Below are positions 34,321 to 50,287 of a DNA stretch of 64,000 bases, in pieces (within the stretch, counting starts at the first letter, position 1; each line of letters starts with the position of its first letter). Source of the DNA: Rhodopirellula sp. P2 (GTDB lineage Bacteria > Planctomycetota > Planctomycetia > Pirellulales > Pirellulaceae); the NCBI RefSeq assembly GCF_028768465.1, contig NZ_CP118225.1, forward strand, positions 5,561,001 to 5,625,000, written 5' to 3'. The notes beneath the pieces were generated by a model that saw only the letters and a program-made list of their open reading frames with translations, ran no database searches and was not told the DNA's origin. The position numbers and the translations under genes were made by a program.

Positions 34321-34359
34321 ACCGACAGGCATGGCCCCCCATCGTACGCGCGATCCCCC

Positions 34360-34530
34360 TGAGTCCTGAGTCCTGAGTCCTGAGTCCTGAGTCCTGAGTC
34401 CTGAGTCCTGAGTCCTGAGTCCTGAGTCCTGAGTCCTGAGTCCTGAGTCCCTGTGGCCCTGTGGCCCTGTGGCCCTGTGGCCCTGAGTCCCTGAGTCCCT
34501 GTGTCCCTGTGTCCCTGTGGCCCTGAGCCC
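34360..34530. repeat. Heptamer array turning into an octamer array
   Basis: Positions 34360-34450 are 13 perfect copies of TGAGTCC. Directly after, 34451-34530 are ten octamers of the form CTG(T/A)G(G/T/C)CC: four CTGTGGCC, two CTGAGTCC, two CTGTGTCC, one CTGTGGCC, one CTGAGCCC. The array ends 14 bp before the stop of the minus-strand gene. A shorter TGAGTCC word recurs near 41620 and 43750. Confidence 0.95.
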
Positions 34531-34544
34531 CTTCCCCACTTCCC

Positions 34545-42023: not shown

Positions 42024-43343
42024 TTACTTCTCGGCCATTTTGTCTCGGAGCTCTTGGCAGGCTTCTGAGGGCGTGCTGCACATCGTGCAGCGAGACACGC
42101 CGTCCTCGTCGATCTTGGCGTTCAATCCACCACACGATCCGCTGATCGCTTGACGTCCGAAAATGACTCCGACGGCCATCGCGAGCAACACCGCGCCAAA
42201 CGTCAACCCGGTCATCAACAACACGGGCGCCATTCGCTGAGCAAACGACTTTTCTTCGGCTTCGTCGGTCGGCGTCACGGCGATCTCGTTGCCCACTGTG
42301 GGTTCCGAAACGTCGACGTCGGCGTACTGCGTTAACTCGCCCGTGCCACTGGAAACCAACCCGTCATTGAATCGCTGGACGACCAACACGCTGAGATCAT
42401 TCTCGCGTGCCAATCGCATCGCGTCTTCAGCCCCGACCACGTTCAACGCTGTTGCCCAGCCATCGGCGAGCATGCAGGTGTCGGTGATCACACTGACCGA
42501 CGCCACCCCATTGGTGACCGGGCGGCCGGTGCGTGGATCGATCGTGTGCGAATAACGCTGGTCATCGACTTCGAAGAAGTTGCGGTAGTCACCCGAGGTT
42601 GCCATCGCGGCATCGCGAATCTTGTGAGCGACCAACAACTCTTGCCCACCAGTGTCAGGTCGCTGAATCCCAACCTTCCATGAATCGCCGGACTTATCAC
42701 CCGCCACGCGGACCTCGCCACCGACTTCCACGAACACATTCTCCGCCCCACGCCCTGCCAACAACTCGACAATTCGGTCCACGCCGTGGCCCTTGGCAAT
42801 CGAAGACAGATCGACTTGCAGTTCCGCGATGTCCTTTTTCAGAGCCGGTGGATCGAGGCGTGACTGCAAGTGTTGGTAACCGATGTTCTGCTTCAGCTCC
42901 CCCAACTCCGCTTGGCTGGGGACATCGTTTTTGCGTTCGCCAGCACCAAAGCTCCAGCGATCGACCAACGGTCCCACGGTCACATCAAACGCACCGTCCG
43001 TTTTCTCTGACAGTTCCAATGCCGCGGCAACCACTTCCGCGGTTTCAGCACTGACGTCGAACCAGTCCATTGATTCCGACGCGTTGAACTGGCTCAACTC
43101 CGACGACTTCAGGTACGTCGACATTTGATCGTTGACCGACCGCAACTCACGTTCGATCGCCGTCGCGGTCTCCGCATCCCAATCGGGTGTTTCCGGCGGC
43201 GAATGGACTTTGACCATGTAGGTCGTCCCCATCGTCGCCCCGCGAAACGTCAGTGGATCCGCAGCACCAACCGGGGAGAACCAACACGACGTCGCCAGGA
43301 ACCAACAACCTAAGAACGCGACGACGCTGGAATGTTTTCTCAT
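42024..43343 (-). CDS. apbE-nqrM: ApbE-NqrM fusion: FMN transferase plus Nqr maturation factor
   Basis: The protein has 439 residues from the ATG at 43343; a TTG at 43421 would add 26. An N-terminal hydrophobic signal with possible lipid-attachment cysteines (LGC, TSC) leads into ApbE (about 30-340), which links FMN to a threonine in NqrB and NqrC. Motifs are RGATMGTTYMVKV, DLSSIAKGHGVDRIVELL, FVEVGGEVRVAG, YSHTIDPRTGRPVTNG and LADGWATALNVVG. After an acidic linker, one helix (374-396) and a tail with Cys404, Cys419, Cys422 and Cys429 in SGSCGGL, RCTMC and EAC match NqrM, needed for the metal centre between NqrD and NqrE. The two are normally separate genes. It follows nqrF by 447 bp on the same strand. 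Confidence 0.93.
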   Translation of the reverse strand: MRKHSSVVAFLGCWFLATSCWFSPVGAADPLTFRGATMGTTYMVKVHSPPETPDWDAETATAIERELRSVNDQMSTYLKSSELSQFNASESMDWFDVSAETAEVVAAALELSEKTDGAFDVTVGPLVDRWSFGAGERKNDVPSQAELGELKQNIGYQHLQSRLDPPALKKDIAELQVDLSSIAKGHGVDRIVELLAGRGAENVFVEVGGEVRVAGDKSGDSWKVGIQRPDTGGQELLVAHKIRDAAMATSGDYRNFFEVDDQRYSHTIDPRTGRPVTNGVASVSVITDTCMLADGWATALNVVGAEDAMRLARENDLSVLVVQRFNDGLVSSGTGELTQYADVDVSEPTVGNEIAVTPTDEAEEKSFAQRMAPVLLMTGLTFGAVLLAMAVGVIFGRQAISGSCGGLNAKIDEDGVSRCTMCSTPSEACQELRDKMAEK

Positions 43344-43790: not shown

Positions 43791-45050
43791 TCAGCCACCG
43801 AAGTCATCGTAGGCAATGTTTTCGGGTTCAACACCCAAGTCATCCAGCATGCGGAACACAGCGGCGTTCATCATGGGTGGACCACAGATGTAGTACTCGA
43901 TGTCTTCCGGTGCCGGGTGGTTGCGGAGGTAATTGTCCAGCAAGACCTGGTGAATGAAGCCGACGTACCCGTCCCAGTTGTCTTCCGGTTGAGGCTCCGA
44001 CAATGCGATGTTGAACTGGAAGTTCGGGAAGTCCTTTTCGATCTCACGGAACTGATCGATGTAGAACAGCTCACGAAGGCTTCGACCGCCGTACCAGTAG
44101 CTGACCTTGCGGTCCGTTTTCTGGCGTTTGAACAACTCAAAGATGTGACTTCGCAGAGGTGCCATCCCGGCACCACCCCCGATGTAAACCATTTCGGCGT
44201 CGCTGTCCTTGATGAAGAATTCACCGTAAGGACCGCTGATCGTGGCTTTGTCGCCTGGTTTGAGCGAGAAGATGTAACTGCTCATCTTCCCAGGCGGTGT
44301 TCCCTCAGGAGCACGTGGTGGTGGCGACGCGACCCGGATGTTGAGCATGATGATGCCCTTCTCGCCGGGGTAGTTGGCCATCGAATAAGCACGGATGACC
44401 GGCTCTTCGACCTTCGACACGTACCGCCAAATGTTGTACTGGTCCCAGTCGGGGTGATACTCTTCGTCGATGTCGAAATCTTTGTAGTGGATTTCGTGGG
44501 GTGGGCATTCGATTTGGATGTAACCACCCGCCCGGAAATCGACCTCGGCCCCTTCGGGAAGCTGCAGGACGAATTCCTTGATGAAGGTCGCAACGTTGTC
44601 GTTGCTCTTGACCGTGCATTCCCATTTCTGGGTGTCGAACGCTTCCGGTGGAACTTCCACAACCATGTCGGTCTTCACAGCGACTTGGCAGGACAATCGT
44701 TCGCCCTCGGCGGCTTCTTTCTTGTTGATGTGGCCGGTTTCGGTCGCCAACAAGTCGCCACCGCCCTCGGTGACTTTGACTTTGCACTGGGCACAGGTCC
44801 CACCGCCACCGCAGGCACTGCTGACGAAGATGCCCGCGTCTGCGAGAGCACCGAGCAGCTTTCCGCCGGCCGGGACGGAAATTTCTTTTTGGCCGTTGAT
44901 CATGATTTTGACCGGGCCGGATGCAACCAATTGGCTTTTGGCGGCCAAAATCAGCAGCACCAATGCGATCACCACAACGGTGAACATGACGACGCCGAGA
45001 ATGACGACCGTGCTGGCGGAGGCCGCTATCATCAGAGGAAGGGAAAGCAT
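43791..45050 (-). CDS. nqrF: Na+-translocating NADH:quinone reductase subunit F
   Basis: The protein has 419 residues, close to the usual 405-410. It is the NADH-oxidising entry point of the Na+ pump. An N-terminal membrane helix (about 12-36) precedes a plant-type ferredoxin domain with [2Fe-2S] ligands Cys80, Cys86, Cys89 ([12 protein letters not shown]) and Cys121. The FAD domain carries [13 protein letters not shown] and the NADH domain [18 protein letters not shown] and [20 protein letters not shown]. The protein ends in DDFGG as in relatives. It starts 135 bp after nqrE in the operon. Confidence 0.97.
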
Positions 45051-45185: not shown

Positions 45186-45827
45186 TTACAGCTGAATGCC
45201 GCTGAAGGACATGAATGCCAATGACATCAAACCAACCGTGATAAACGTGATTCCCAAACCGCGAAGCGGTGGAGGAACGTCGCTGTACTTCAATTTTTCG
45301 CGAATTCCGGCCAGAGCCATGATCGCCAAAGCCCAACCAACGCCACAGCCGAAGCCGAAGACGACGGATTCGCCAAACGCGTACTCACGCTGCTCCATGA
45401 ACAACGACGCACCCAAGATGGCGCAGTTCACGGTGATCAGAGGAAGGAAAATCCCCAGGGCGTTGTAAAGGCTGGGCATGAATCGATCGAGGAACATTTC
45501 CAAGATCTGAACCATGGCGGCGATCACGCCGATGTAGCTGATGAACCCGAGGAAGGTCAGGTCGACCTCCGCGAAGTTGTAAGTGTCCGTGCTGATCAGA
45601 TAGTCGTTGACCCAGGTCAACGCACCTTTCTTCAGCAACAGGCTGTAGATCAATTGGTTGGCAGGCACGGTGATGGTCTCGATCGCGATGACCGCGATCC
45701 CCAAGCCGATTGCCGTTTTGACGTTTTTACTGACTGCCAAGAACGTGCACATTCCCAAAAAGAATGCGAGTGCCAGGTTCTCGACGAAGACAGCCTTCAA
45801 AAAGATGCTGAGGTATTGTTCGACCAT
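45186..45827 (-). CDS. nqrE: Na+-translocating NADH:quinone reductase subunit E
   Basis: The protein has 213 residues with six predicted membrane helices. It pairs with NqrD to form the channel-like core. Two conserved cysteines that, with those of NqrD, hold the intramembrane iron centre are present: Cys27 in [10 protein letters not shown] and Cys135 in [12 protein letters not shown]. It starts 3 bp after the nqrD stop codon, so the two are tightly linked. The reading frame is intact. Confidence 0.97.
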
Positions 45828-45830
45828 GAC

Positions 45831-46457
45831 TTAGGCCTCTTCGATTTGTTCGGGTTTGTTCAAACGGATCACCCAAATCATGAACCCAATGATGAAGAAC
45901 GCACTGGGCGGCAACAGCATCAAGTTGTTCGGGTTGTACCAGCCGCCGTTGCGGTCCAGTTGAAAGAGTTCAAAGCCCAACAGCGACCCGCTGCCGAACA
46001 ATTCGCGGAAAAACGCGACGACGATCAGGACCAATCCGTAGCCCAGCCCGTTGCCAATTCCGTCCAAGAAACTGATCCAAACGCCATTCTTCATGGCGAA
46101 GCCTTCCGCACGTCCCATGACGATGCAGTTGGTGATGATCAGCCCCACGAAGACCGAAAGTTGTTTGCTGATTTCGTACATGTACGCCTTCAGCACTTGG
46201 TCGACGACAATCACCAGCGATGCGATCACGGTCATCTGAACGATGATCCGAATGCTGCCGGGAATGTAGTGACGAATGGACGACACCGCCGCGTTCGAAC
46301 ACCCGGTCACCGCGATCACAGCGAGAGCCATGACGATCGAAACCTGGATGCTGGTCGTCACAGCCAGAGCACTACAAATGCCCAGGATCTGCAACGCGAT
46401 TGGGTTGTTGTCGATGACGGGTCCAAACAGGACCTTGCCGACTTTGGGGGCAGCCAT
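45831..46457 (-). CDS. nqrD: Na+-translocating NADH:quinone reductase subunit D
   Basis: The protein has 208 residues with six membrane helices and is the structural partner of NqrE. The two metal-site cysteines are Cys28 in [11 protein letters not shown] and Cys111 in [16 protein letters not shown]. It begins 3 bp after nqrC. The [18 protein letters not shown] word is characteristic of NqrD rather than its RnfE relative, and the presence of NqrA and NqrF supports this. Confidence 0.97.
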
Positions 46458-46460
46458 GGT

Positions 46461-47372
46461 TTACTCTCCCACCGGTTCTTTGGGACCGACGTTGTCGATG
46501 TCGTATTGTTCGACACCGCTTTCGACGGAGGATTCAGGTTGATCGGCTTCCGCGGATGCGTCACCGGTAAGTCGTTGCTTCAGTTTGCCCAGGAACGGAC
46601 CGTATCCGTTGGGACCGGCCCAGTAACGCACCAGGTTGGTCACACCACGACAAGTGATCGTGGCACCGGACAATCCATCGACGGCAAAGTCATCACCATC
46701 GGGGGCAGGTCCCTTCGCAACACGAGCGGCGGGCGTGCCGTCGGTGTCATAAAGTTTGTTGCCGACCCACTGGGCTTTCCACTTGGTGTTGTCCACTTCG
46801 CCACCCAAACCGGGTGTTTCAGCGTGCTCGTAGAAAGTCAAACCAGCGATCGTTTCGAGATCGTTCTTCAACGCCATGTAGCCGTACAGCGTTGACCAAA
46901 GGCCTTTGCCGTAAACCGGCAGCACGACCATTTCGATCTTCTCGCTGCCAGGCTTCTTCACGTAGTAAACGCGAGCGACCTTTTCACGACGAGGAACGCC
47001 GATGTCGAATTGCGGGTCCGTGATCTCGATGCTCTCGGAATCTTTCTTCGCAGCTTCGCGAGGGTCGTATTTCTCGGCTTTTTCACCTTCGAGATCGGTG
47101 TCAATGTCACCCGTTTCCAGGTCCACCAATTCGGGACTGACCCAGGCCCAAAGCTTTTCAATTTGCTCTTTGTCCAGCTCGGCGGCTGGTTTTCCAAATT
47201 CGCCCAAAGACAAACCAGCCGCATCCAAGATGTTGCGTTGGCGGTCAAGGACTTTGTTCTCTTCTTGTAGCGGTCGCAGTGCCACCGCGGCGGCACTGAC
47301 GGCGAACGAACAGACCACGCATAGAATCGTCGCGGTCACGATCGTTTTCAAAGTGGAATCAGGCTGTGACAT
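46461..47372 (-). CDS. nqrC: Na+-translocating NADH:quinone reductase subunit C
   Basis: The protein has 303 residues, a little longer than the usual 260; the added length is an acidic C-terminal tail and a loop near 85-115. One N-terminal helix (about 10-32) anchors an FMN-binding domain outside the cytoplasm. The covalent FMN site is Thr238 in [15 protein letters not shown], the target of Apb[16 protein letters not shown] and [13 protein letters not shown] are further family words. Its start overlaps the end of nqrB by 14 bp. Confidence 0.96.
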
Positions 47373-48618
47373 AGCGTGCGGCCCTCCGGCGGATGTTGAG
47401 TTGGACGACGCCCCAATCGATCAACGGTGCGAACACGTTGCCGAACAAGATCGCCAGCATGATGCCTTCTGGGAAAGCAGGGTTGATGACGCGAATCAGC
47501 ACGGTCATGAACCCAATCAGGATCCCGTAAACCCACTTGCCGGTTTCTGTCATCGAGGCACTGACCGGGTCGGTCGCCATGAACACCAAACCAAAGGCGA
47601 GGCCGCCGATGACGAGGTGCCAATAAAACGGCACAGCGAACATGGCATTTGTTTCACTGCCAGCAAAGTTCAGCAACAACGCGGTCGCGGTCACACCAGC
47701 GATCACGCCAGCCATGATTTTCCACGATCCGATGCCCGTCGCGATCAGAATCAAAGCACCGACCAAACACAGCAGGGCACTGGTTTCGCCGACGCAGCCT
47801 TGGATGGTTCCGATGAACGCACTCATCCAAGTGATCGGCTCTTCGGTGCCCCAGACGTACTGGACGGCACTCAGCGACCCGACAGCGTCTTCGCTGGCGT
47901 TGGCCATTTGCCCCAGAGCGGTTGCACCGGAGAAGCCATCGACTGCGGTCCAGACTTTGTCGCCGCTGATTTGACCAGCGTAAGCGAAGTACAGGAACGC
48001 TCGCGAAGTCAGAGCGACGTTGAGGAAGTTGCGTCCCGTGCCGCCAAAGACTTCTTTGGCGACAATCACCCCGAACGCGATCCCCACGGCGACCTGCCAG
48101 AGCGGGATTGAGGCGGGCAGGGTGAGTGGAAAGAGCAATCCGGTGACCAGGAACCCTTCGTTGATCTCGTGCCCACGAAGGACACTGAAGACCAATTCGA
48201 CATGCCCACCCACGAACATACAAACCGCGTAAATGGGGATGAAGAAGATCGCCCCATAAATGAAGTTGTCGACGTGGTCGGTGGGGTCGTGCCCGAGCCC
48301 GATGGCGGTGTGAACGGTGTGGTGCCAGTCATAATCGACTGCCACATTCGCGTCGGTCATCTTTTGGATGGCCGAGTTGGCTTGATACCCTGTGTTCCAC
48401 ATGCCGAACAACGTGACCGGAATCAACGCGAAGACGACCGTGATCATCATGCGTTTCAGGTCAATGTTGTCGCGCACGTGCGTGCGTCCGTGAGCCGTCT
48501 CGCCTGGCGTGAACAAGAACGTGTCGAGAGCTTCGTACATCGGGTACGCTTTCTCGAGCAGTCCGCCTTTGGCAAAGAACGGGTGGACGCTGTCAAATGC
48601 GTCACGTAATGCTTTCAT
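47359..48618 (-). CDS. nqrB: Na+-translocating NADH:quinone reductase subunit B
   Basis: The protein has 419 residues, the usual length. It is the largest membrane subunit and carries covalent FMN and riboflavin. The FMN-linked threonine is Thr233 in [16 protein letters not shown], matching Vibrio Thr236. Helices are distributed from about 55 to 400, and [20 protein letters not shown] is a strongly conserved family word. It starts 5 bp after the nqrA stop. The C-terminal end overlaps the nqrC start by 14 bp. Confidence 0.97.
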
Positions 48619-48623
48619 ATTCC

Positions 48624-49994
48624 TTAACCTTCACGCTCAATGGTTGTCAGGTTTTCTCGGATCAAGGATCCATATTCGTATTTACCGGGGCACACGAACG
48701 TGCACAGGGCCAAATCTTCTTCTTCCAGCTCCAGCACGCCGAGCTGCTGAGCCGAATCGGTGTCGCGAACGATCAACGCTCGCAACAATTGTGTTGCCAA
48801 GATGTCCATCGGCATCACCTTTTCGTAGGTGCCCAATGGAACCATCGCTCGCTCACTGCCGCCGGTGGAGGACGTGAAGTCGAATTTACGGTCTGGGGTC
48901 AATGCCGAAGCGAACACGCGGGTGACCGAAAACTTGTCAAAGCCTGGTTTCTGCCAGCCCATGAATTCGCGGTGGTCACCCTCTTCAATCACTGACACTT
49001 GATTGTCGTAGCGTCCCAGGAACTGATGCGGTGCCGCAGCGACGTGCCCGTTGAGCACCGAACCCGAGATGACTCGCAGTTTGACCGAGGTGTCGACTTC
49101 GCCCTCGATCAATTCGTCGATGCAAGCGCCCAAGCGGGTTTCGATCAAACGTGGTTGGTTCACTTTCGGGCCTGCCAACGAGATCACTCGGCGAGTGTCC
49201 AGTTGACCGGTCTGCAGGAATGAACCGATCGCGATCACGTCTTGGTAACCGATGTACCAAACCGTTTTGTTGAGGCTGACGGGATCCAAGTAATGAATGT
49301 GTGTTCCCGCCAAACCGGCAGGGTGGGGTCCCGAGAACGCCGAGGCTTGAACTCCGGCGACGTCGCCGCCAGGAATCGATGCCTTTTCGGCTTGGCAAAG
49401 ATGCACAGGACCGTCGGTCAATCGCGTCAACGCTTGCAACCCGATCACGAACTGGTCCTTGCGATCTGCCAACACCACGGCGGGGTCTGCCGCCAAGGGA
49501 TTGGTATCCGTCGCGGTGACGAAGATCGAATGGGGTGCCGAATCAATCGCGGGCACCTTGCCGAACGGGCGAGTGCGAAGCGATGACCACAGCCCGATTT
49601 GGACCAAGCCACCAACCAGCTTTTCGCGAGCAATCGAGACGGGGTCCGAGCCTGCGATGCCTTCGATCGTGGTCGATTCGGTCGAATCCAAATCGACGTC
49701 GATGACAATCGCTTCAAACTTTCGTTTCGCGCCGCGAACCACATCGGCCACGGTGCCCGAGGCGGGGGCGGTGTAGATCACGCCCGGTGTTTTCTTGTCT
49801 TCGAATACTGGTTGGCCCAACACAACCCGGTCGCCGGGGGCCACCAACATTGTCGGCTTCATTCCGATGTAATCATCGCCCAACAAAGCCACTTGACGGA
49901 TCGCCGGACCGGCTTCCATGTGCTGTTCGGGGCATCCCGTGATGGGCAGATCGAGCCCCTTCTTGATCCGGGTCACGCTTTGAGTCATTGCCAT
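48624..49994 (-). CDS. nqrA: Na+-translocating NADH:quinone reductase subunit A
   Basis: The protein has 456 residues from the ATG at 49994. Other NqrA proteins also begin only a few residues before IKKGLDLPI, so the longer TTG-start frame (to 50039) is rejected; the ATG at 49988 is also possible. NqrA is the cytoplasmic peripheral subunit involved in quinone binding. Family words are [36 protein letters not shown] and [17 protein letters not shown]. It is the first gene of the operon. Confidence 0.96.
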
Positions 49995-50287
49995 GAATGG
50001 GCACTTTGTGAAATTTGTAACAAAGTCGGTTCGAGCCAAAGCCCGCGTTGTTTCTCCGAAAGAAAGCGATGGAAAAAAATGTCGCGGGCCAAGCAGGCGG
50101 ACACTATTGCATAGCGTTAGAAGATTGACAACGGCAGATGGTTGTCGTTCCGACCTGGATATTGGTCTCGTTCTTCAACGAGGACCAACCATGCAAATGA
50201 AGCCGAATCTGCGGGTGAAACCGATCGCGGAATGGCTCCGTTCCCAACCGTCGCCCAAGGCGAATCTGCACGCCACTGGACGTACCC
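49995..50287. other. Leader and promoter region of the nqr operon
   Basis: This region precedes nqrA. A small inverted repeat (CTTTGT at 50004-50009, ACAAAG at 50020-50025, 10-bp spacer) lies directly upstream of the start. No clear -35/-10 pair was recognised. The stretch from about 50060 on shows no gene and leads into the 150-bp repeat array. Confidence 0.4.
50004..50025 (-). promoter_or_regulatory. Possible operator or leader hairpin before nqrA
   Basis: The 6-bp arms CTTTGT/ACAAAG are 10 bp apart and end about 10 bp before the ATG at 49994. An inverted repeat of this size can arise by chance; its position near the translation start is the only reason to note it. Confidence 0.25.

Follow-up and report, generated by a model that had tools for sequence, protein, structure and literature searches.

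Does a single gene at the end of a planctomycete nqr cluster encode two assembly factors of the same enzyme, and what would their joining do? To our knowledge, the route and order by which 2Fe-2S and covalently bound FMN enter NQR are poorly understood; a natural fusion physically links the factors for both steps, in a set topology relative to each other and at 1:1 dosage. The gene analyzed here lies in a stretch of 64,000 nucleotides from Rhodopirellula sp. P2 (contig NZ_CP118225.1, positions 5,561,001 to 5,625,000), which we call the window.

Two NQR assembly factors in one chain

An earlier note on this DNA, made from the letters and their translations, had read the frame as ApbE and NqrM in one polypeptide, and both Pfam families match it in frame and above their cut-offs. 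The ApbE profile (PF02424) scores 295.6 bits (E 4.6e-88) over positions 1-263 of its 266. Comparing the C-terminal residues with the NqrM profile (PF04400), as the note had proposed, gave a match at residues 393-438 with 24.4 bits (E 2.5e-05). The cut-off of 22 leaves this second match a thin margin of 2.4 bits, and the relative L026 falls below it with a score of 19.8; the assignment is backed by conservation among fused proteins. When eight of these, from different genera except for two from one, were aligned, seven shared 39-51% identity with the window protein and all four cysteines were invariant in 8/8. A planctomycete NqrM profile that includes the window sequence (A2) scores 97.4 bits.

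The NqrM half displays the organization of its family, a single helix followed by conserved cysteines that begin with GSCGG. Its four cysteines stand exactly where the note had placed them, and their spacing, C-x14-C-x2-C-x6-C, recurs in 48 of the 53 fused proteins described below, with one-residue variation in three more and a different spacing in G601 and G725. Eight separate NqrMs of the genus g10 (L106, L110-L112, L114, L115, L118 and L122) have the spacing C-x11-C-x2-C-x2-C. The helix that the note had put at residues 374-396 coincides with the hydrophobic maximum of the protein, the most hydrophobic 19-residue segment beginning at residue 376, and lies within the single helix of the AlphaFold model. 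The joining of these two NQR assembly factors in one chain is real and old.

That model, built with 36 sequences, reaches block-mean pLDDT values of 86-99 over residues 31-340, gives the linker low confidence and models the cysteine tail poorly. The best Foldseek matches are ApbEs, including that of Vibrio cholerae (6nxj_A, TM 0.93 by target length), and the NqrM profile gave no match above noise against solved structures. Asp294 and Thr298 presumably take part in metal binding. His266, in the YSHxIDP motif, is invariant across the 36-row alignment and is the counterpart of the catalytic His257 described for V. cholerae ApbE (PMC5655446).

The genes nqrA-nqrF lie upstream of the fusion gene, all on the same strand (Table 1). 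The earlier note had called this the end of an nqr operon: its position downstream of nqrF stands, and the operon claim is reduced to a positional one by the 447 bases that separate the nqrF stop from the fusion ATG and by one weak terminator-like site near nqrF (the scanned region holds two such sites, where shuffled sequence averages 2.4). It is likely that the fusion gene shares a transcript with the nqr genes. In the accounts of V. cholerae and Vibrio natriegens, the same two factors are encoded directly downstream of the nqr genes, and V. cholerae apbE and nqrM are described as co-transcribed with them (PMC12174285, PMC6209661); those organisms make two proteins, whereas Rhodopirellula makes one.

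Table 1 Features of the fusion gene, its product and the nqr genes (window positions; residues refer to the 439-residue product)
Feature	Position	Strand	Remark
apbE-nqrM fusion gene, 439 aa	42024..43343	-	one open frame, no internal stop
Signal region, residues 1-27	43263..43343	-	cleavable-looking ...SPVGA/AD (by eye)
ApbE FMN-transferase domain, residues 38-318	42390..43232	-	Pfam; H266, D294/T298
Linker between ApbE domain and helix, residues 341-360	42264..42323	-	low model confidence
Single long helix, residues 362-400 (model)	42144..42260	-	hydrophobic core about 374-396
NqrM domain, residues 393-438	42030..42167	-	Pfam; Cys 404, 419, 422, 429
nqrF	43791..45050	-	TIGR01941, 667.8 bits
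nqrE	45186..45827	-	Cys27, Cys135 resemble V. cholerae NqrE 2Fe-2S ligand contexts (by eye)
nqrD	45831..46457	-	Cys28, Cys111 resemble V. cholerae NqrD 2Fe-2S ligand contexts (by eye)
nqrC	46461..47372	-	flavinylation motif DGLSGATI
nqrB	47359..48618	-	flavinylation motif DGFSGATA
nqrA	48624..50039	-	three NQRA domains

Distribution, association with NQR and origin

The NqrM profile matched 70 of 392 genomes of the phylum at E <= 0.1, in 23 of them above the cut-off; eight of the 30 matching loci that were read are fusions, all from the class of the window. Within that class, a profile of the whole fusion found some ApbE in 397/397 Planctomycetia genomes. We read 90 loci from this second search: 30 that it supplied with sequence, 40 others covering both domains and 20 taken from the large group with ApbE only. 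They comprise 53 fusions, 35 side-by-side apbE and nqrM genes and two in which ApbE stands alone (G594 and G662), so that at least 53 of the 397 genomes carry the fusion. The reading took in all listed matches that extend to profile position 415 except one, in G733, which begins at a contig end and looks fused; it was left uncounted.

G594 and G662 belong to the family of the window and branch next to its fused clade. Their ApbEs are of the lipobox type and have no adjacent nqrM, and stand-alone NqrMs with an N-terminal extension are encoded far from them (G594:C1:2212475-2212645, L248; G662:C1:2039190-2039360, L249); this arrangement reflects either a pre-fusion state or a subsequent fission. 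In three genomes of genus g368 (G508, G516 and G721), which gave no NqrF match, the ApbE matches extend C-terminally to profile positions 379-384. Two candidates were discarded: a 456-codon frame in G025 (L009) overlaps a separate pair, and L030 is a chance match. Stop-codon read-through, considered for 17 of the 90 class loci in which both genes share one frame with at least one stop between them, was rejected; these are ordinary neighboring genes and were counted as separate. A Met codon precedes the NqrM helix in 13 of the 17, and in four genomes of one genus (G121, G339, G421 and G436) GTG is the second codon after the apbE stop and GGAGAG or GGAGAT, plausibly a ribosome site, lies just before that stop.

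The fusion is closely associated with its presumed client. NqrF was found at E <= 1e-80 in 126/397 class genomes and in 52 of the 53 with a fusion (hypergeometric 7e-29, uncorrected for relatedness); the exception, G660, is a draft in about 370 contigs. Of 25 fused neighborhoods examined over some 8 kb of upstream sequence (a shorter stretch in G344, G622 and G678), 14 have nqrB-F just upstream. The other 11 have no nqr genes in that stretch, and NqrF is encoded elsewhere in all 11 genomes, in G291 about 3 Mb away on the same single contig. Association without adjacency argues for a functional tie over mere linkage. The fused frame also appears to be the only source of NqrM: the planctomycete NqrM profile matched 74 of 80 genomes searched, and in each of the 53 fused genomes among them the fused frame is the single NqrM match at E <= 1e-4. 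The earlier note had suggested checking that a separate NqrM is absent, and none was found in the one-contig genome of the window. In four genomes (G024, G357, G393 and G639) a strong NqrF match is present but no NqrM was detected at E 1e-4; one of them, G024, consists of a single contig and comes from the same genus as two fused ones.

To look beyond the class, the motif [NG][RK][RSQ]IKGSCG was scanned over a collection of species genomes, and the best 80 of 103 relatives were used. ApbE lies within 2.5 kb in 78 of these 80, and 12 are fused, all in Planctomycetota. An automatic rule had also called L200 and L232 fused; their nqrM reading frames are 73 and 60 amino acids long, and both were counted as separate. 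Strong ApbE matches to the fusion profile (E <= 1e-85) occur in 34/194 Verrucomicrobiota, 71/319 Pseudomonadota and 17/97 Bdellovibrionota genomes, and among the matches listed for these three phyla none enters NqrM without a stop (the stop count includes the terminal stop, as it does for the window's own match). Sixteen of them that run to profile position 402 or past it and end with a stop were inspected: in 15 the genes form separate pairs, and G760 lacks NqrM. Two more, G756 (L200) and G749 (L214), are both separate. This inspection left out matches ending at about 354-395 (for example, G1189, G1145 and G791), and the sampling excluded Bacteroidota and other NQR-bearing phyla. In the other phyla, too, nqrM often follows apbE directly and in frame.

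On a tree built from the 90 ApbE domains, eight changes between the fused and non-fused states are required, three of them forced by well-supported branches. Among the 37 non-fused class loci, apbE and nqrM are neighbors at 35, where the NqrM match begins anywhere from 10 bases upstream of the apbE stop to 111 bases downstream of it. Such a layout, with a few bases of overlap or direct succession, makes fusion easy. The best explanation is that touching or overlapping apbE-nqrM pairs were joined several times, or that joined genes came apart again; the changes may have run either way.

Topology and the membrane anchor

The earlier note had proposed that ApbE lies outside the cytoplasm and the NqrM cysteines inside, separated by one helix. 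Signal-like N-termini, judged by eye, and the charges flanking the helix support this: in 51/53 fused proteins the 15 residues that follow the helix carry a higher net charge than the 15 that precede it, and in two the charges are equal, as expected if the cysteine side is cytoplasmic. Taken from the charges, an arrangement with ApbE outside and the cysteines inside fits the fused proteins.

A lipid anchor at the N terminus is usual in ApbE, and is not a defining feature. The V. cholerae protein is described as a lipoprotein (PMC12052999). By crude regular-expression calls with a strict lipobox pattern of the PROSITE type, 6/53 fused and 26/37 non-fused class proteins carry the motif (Fisher p 1.6e-8, relatedness ignored); a loose rule gave 6/53 against 23/37, and a simple [AGS]C rule 12/53 against 35/37. 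In the overlapping second sample, the Planctomycetota of the motif set, the contrast is weaker, with 4/12 fused against 10/18 separate proteins under the simple rule and 3/12 against 6/18 under the strict one. The simple rule also finds a lipobox in 46 of the 48 remaining separate ApbEs of that set (45 of the 48 belong to named phyla outside the Planctomycetota and three to records with no phylum). The tree offers three independent supported pairs, too few for a test; on average, 1.8 of them by the strict rule, 1.4 by the loose and 2.4 by the simple one show fusion together with loss of the lipobox, and 0.0 to 0.1 show the opposite.

Individual proteins depart from this pattern. Three fused ApbEs (G550, G583 and G707) have a clear lipoprotein look and a fourth, from G671, matches the loose rule, while several separate ApbEs without a lipobox seem, by eye, to have an uncleaved N-terminal helix instead. 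The window protein bears a weak lipobox-like sequence, FLATSC, beside its cleavable-looking site; FLATSC varies within the genus, and the protein may still be lipidated. That the NqrM helix substitutes for the lipid as the membrane anchor of ApbE is a good but unproven explanation of the lipobox contrast.

A probable maturation factor acting on both sides of the membrane

We consider it highly probable that the fusion is a bifunctional NQR maturation factor that crosses the inner membrane once, both activities being those expected from its two families. The signal peptide would send the ApbE domain outside, where this domain would use FAD as the FMN donor and flavinylate the SGAT-motif threonines of NqrB and NqrC. 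A flexible linker would connect this domain to the membrane-crossing NqrM helix, which would replace the lipid that anchors most separate ApbEs and keep the four-cysteine tail in the cytoplasm. There, the tail may help deliver iron or a 2Fe-2S center for NqrD/NqrE. In V. cholerae, ApbE is described as attaching the FMNs, and 2Fe-2S insertion seems to require NqrM (PMC12174285). The candidate ligand cysteines of NqrD and NqrE were matched by eye, without alignment, to those described for V. cholerae (PMC9325719); together with the ApbE targets in NqrB and NqrC, they suggest that one chain could serve both faces of the complex. The genome of the window encodes a second ApbE (218.9 bits), which by eye has no signal peptide, and this makes the fusion the obvious candidate for extracytoplasmic flavinylation.

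Whether the two steps are coupled is a separate matter. The evidence shows that both halves share one chain, which implies equal dosage; coordination of the flavin and metal steps is an attractive but speculative step further. The strongest competitor to coupling, to which we assign somewhat less than an even chance, is neutral joining: loss of a stop codon would have united two close genes, and the halves would work as before. This account leaves the two jobs themselves untouched. The neighboring genes at nearly all non-fused class loci, the frequent in-frame succession of apbE and nqrM in other phyla and the several changes on the tree are all what it would predict. It would also predict fusions in other phyla that share this gene arrangement, yet none appeared among the 71, 34 and 17 genomes with strong ApbE matches, and the scarcity of lipoboxes in fused ApbEs suggests adaptation to the joined state.

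At the other extreme, the fusion might be a trans-membrane scaffold: bound a single time to nascent NqrBCDE, it would perform flavinylation on the outside and metal insertion on the inside in a fixed sequence. We regard this as a speculative extension, less likely than not; if true, no half-built pump would escape.

A further alternative, that the chain is cut after translation and its parts act separately, so that fusion sets equal dosage only, is improbable. The linker is variable and of low model confidence, as a cut would allow, but an alignment of eight sequences revealed, by eye, no conserved cleavage site in it, and most fused ApbEs would lose their anchor. It is more improbable still that only the ApbE half works, with the C-terminal part as a mere membrane anchor. 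The helix alone could anchor the protein, but this would leave unexplained the invariant cysteines and their conserved spacing, the lack of any other NqrM found in the 53 fused genomes and the low substitution ratios of the NqrM half. Comparisons of the window with 12 relatives of its genus, 11 of which gave a value, yielded dN/dS of 0.02-0.16 for the NqrM half and, in 11 comparisons, 0.06-0.22 for the ApbE half (the higher dS values are saturated, and these figures are rough), which indicates that the NqrM half is under purifying selection. A sequencing or assembly frameshift that joined two genes, which the earlier note had named as grounds for rejecting the fusion, is excluded for practical purposes, as the fusion is intact and in one frame in 13/13 genus genomes searched and in at least 53/397 of the class.

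The bifunctional maturation factor that we favor has partial precedents. RseC and ApbE are described as partial homologs of the N and C terminus of RnfF (PMC11729352), so that RnfF of Rhodobacter capsulatus, likened here by its description, would join an ApbE half and a cytoplasmic-cysteine half in one chain for the related RNF complex. The order there is RseC-ApbE rather than ApbE-NqrM, and RseC is a different protein from NqrM, with two transmembrane helices. This precedent lowers the conceptual novelty of the fusion; if the scaffold reading held for both, the RNF/NQR family would have evolved two-sided scaffolds independently at least twice. In the trypanosomatid ApbE-fumarate reductase, ApbE is likewise joined to a functional partner (PMC12052999), which in that case is its own substrate inside the cell and not another maturation factor. 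We found no description of an ApbE-NqrM fusion in titles and abstract openings, a scope outside which the founding NqrM papers fall. The trypanosomatid case is the only ApbE fusion mentioned in the main text of an ApbE review and of flavinylation surveys, and neither "fused" nor "fusion" occurs in an RNF/NQR review. The planctomycete protein offers a direct way to test the coupling of the two cofactor steps, and the repeated switches between fused and separate states within one class provide natural controls.

Two minor observations concern the same genome. A 602-codon frame at G000:C1:2271000-2271659 (L126, L127) contains two FMN-binding PF04205 domains and is possibly another ApbE target. 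Within the window, positions 34357-34532 hold tandem arrays of 7- and 8-base units, with about 13 copies of CCTGAGT and about 10 of CCCTGTGG.
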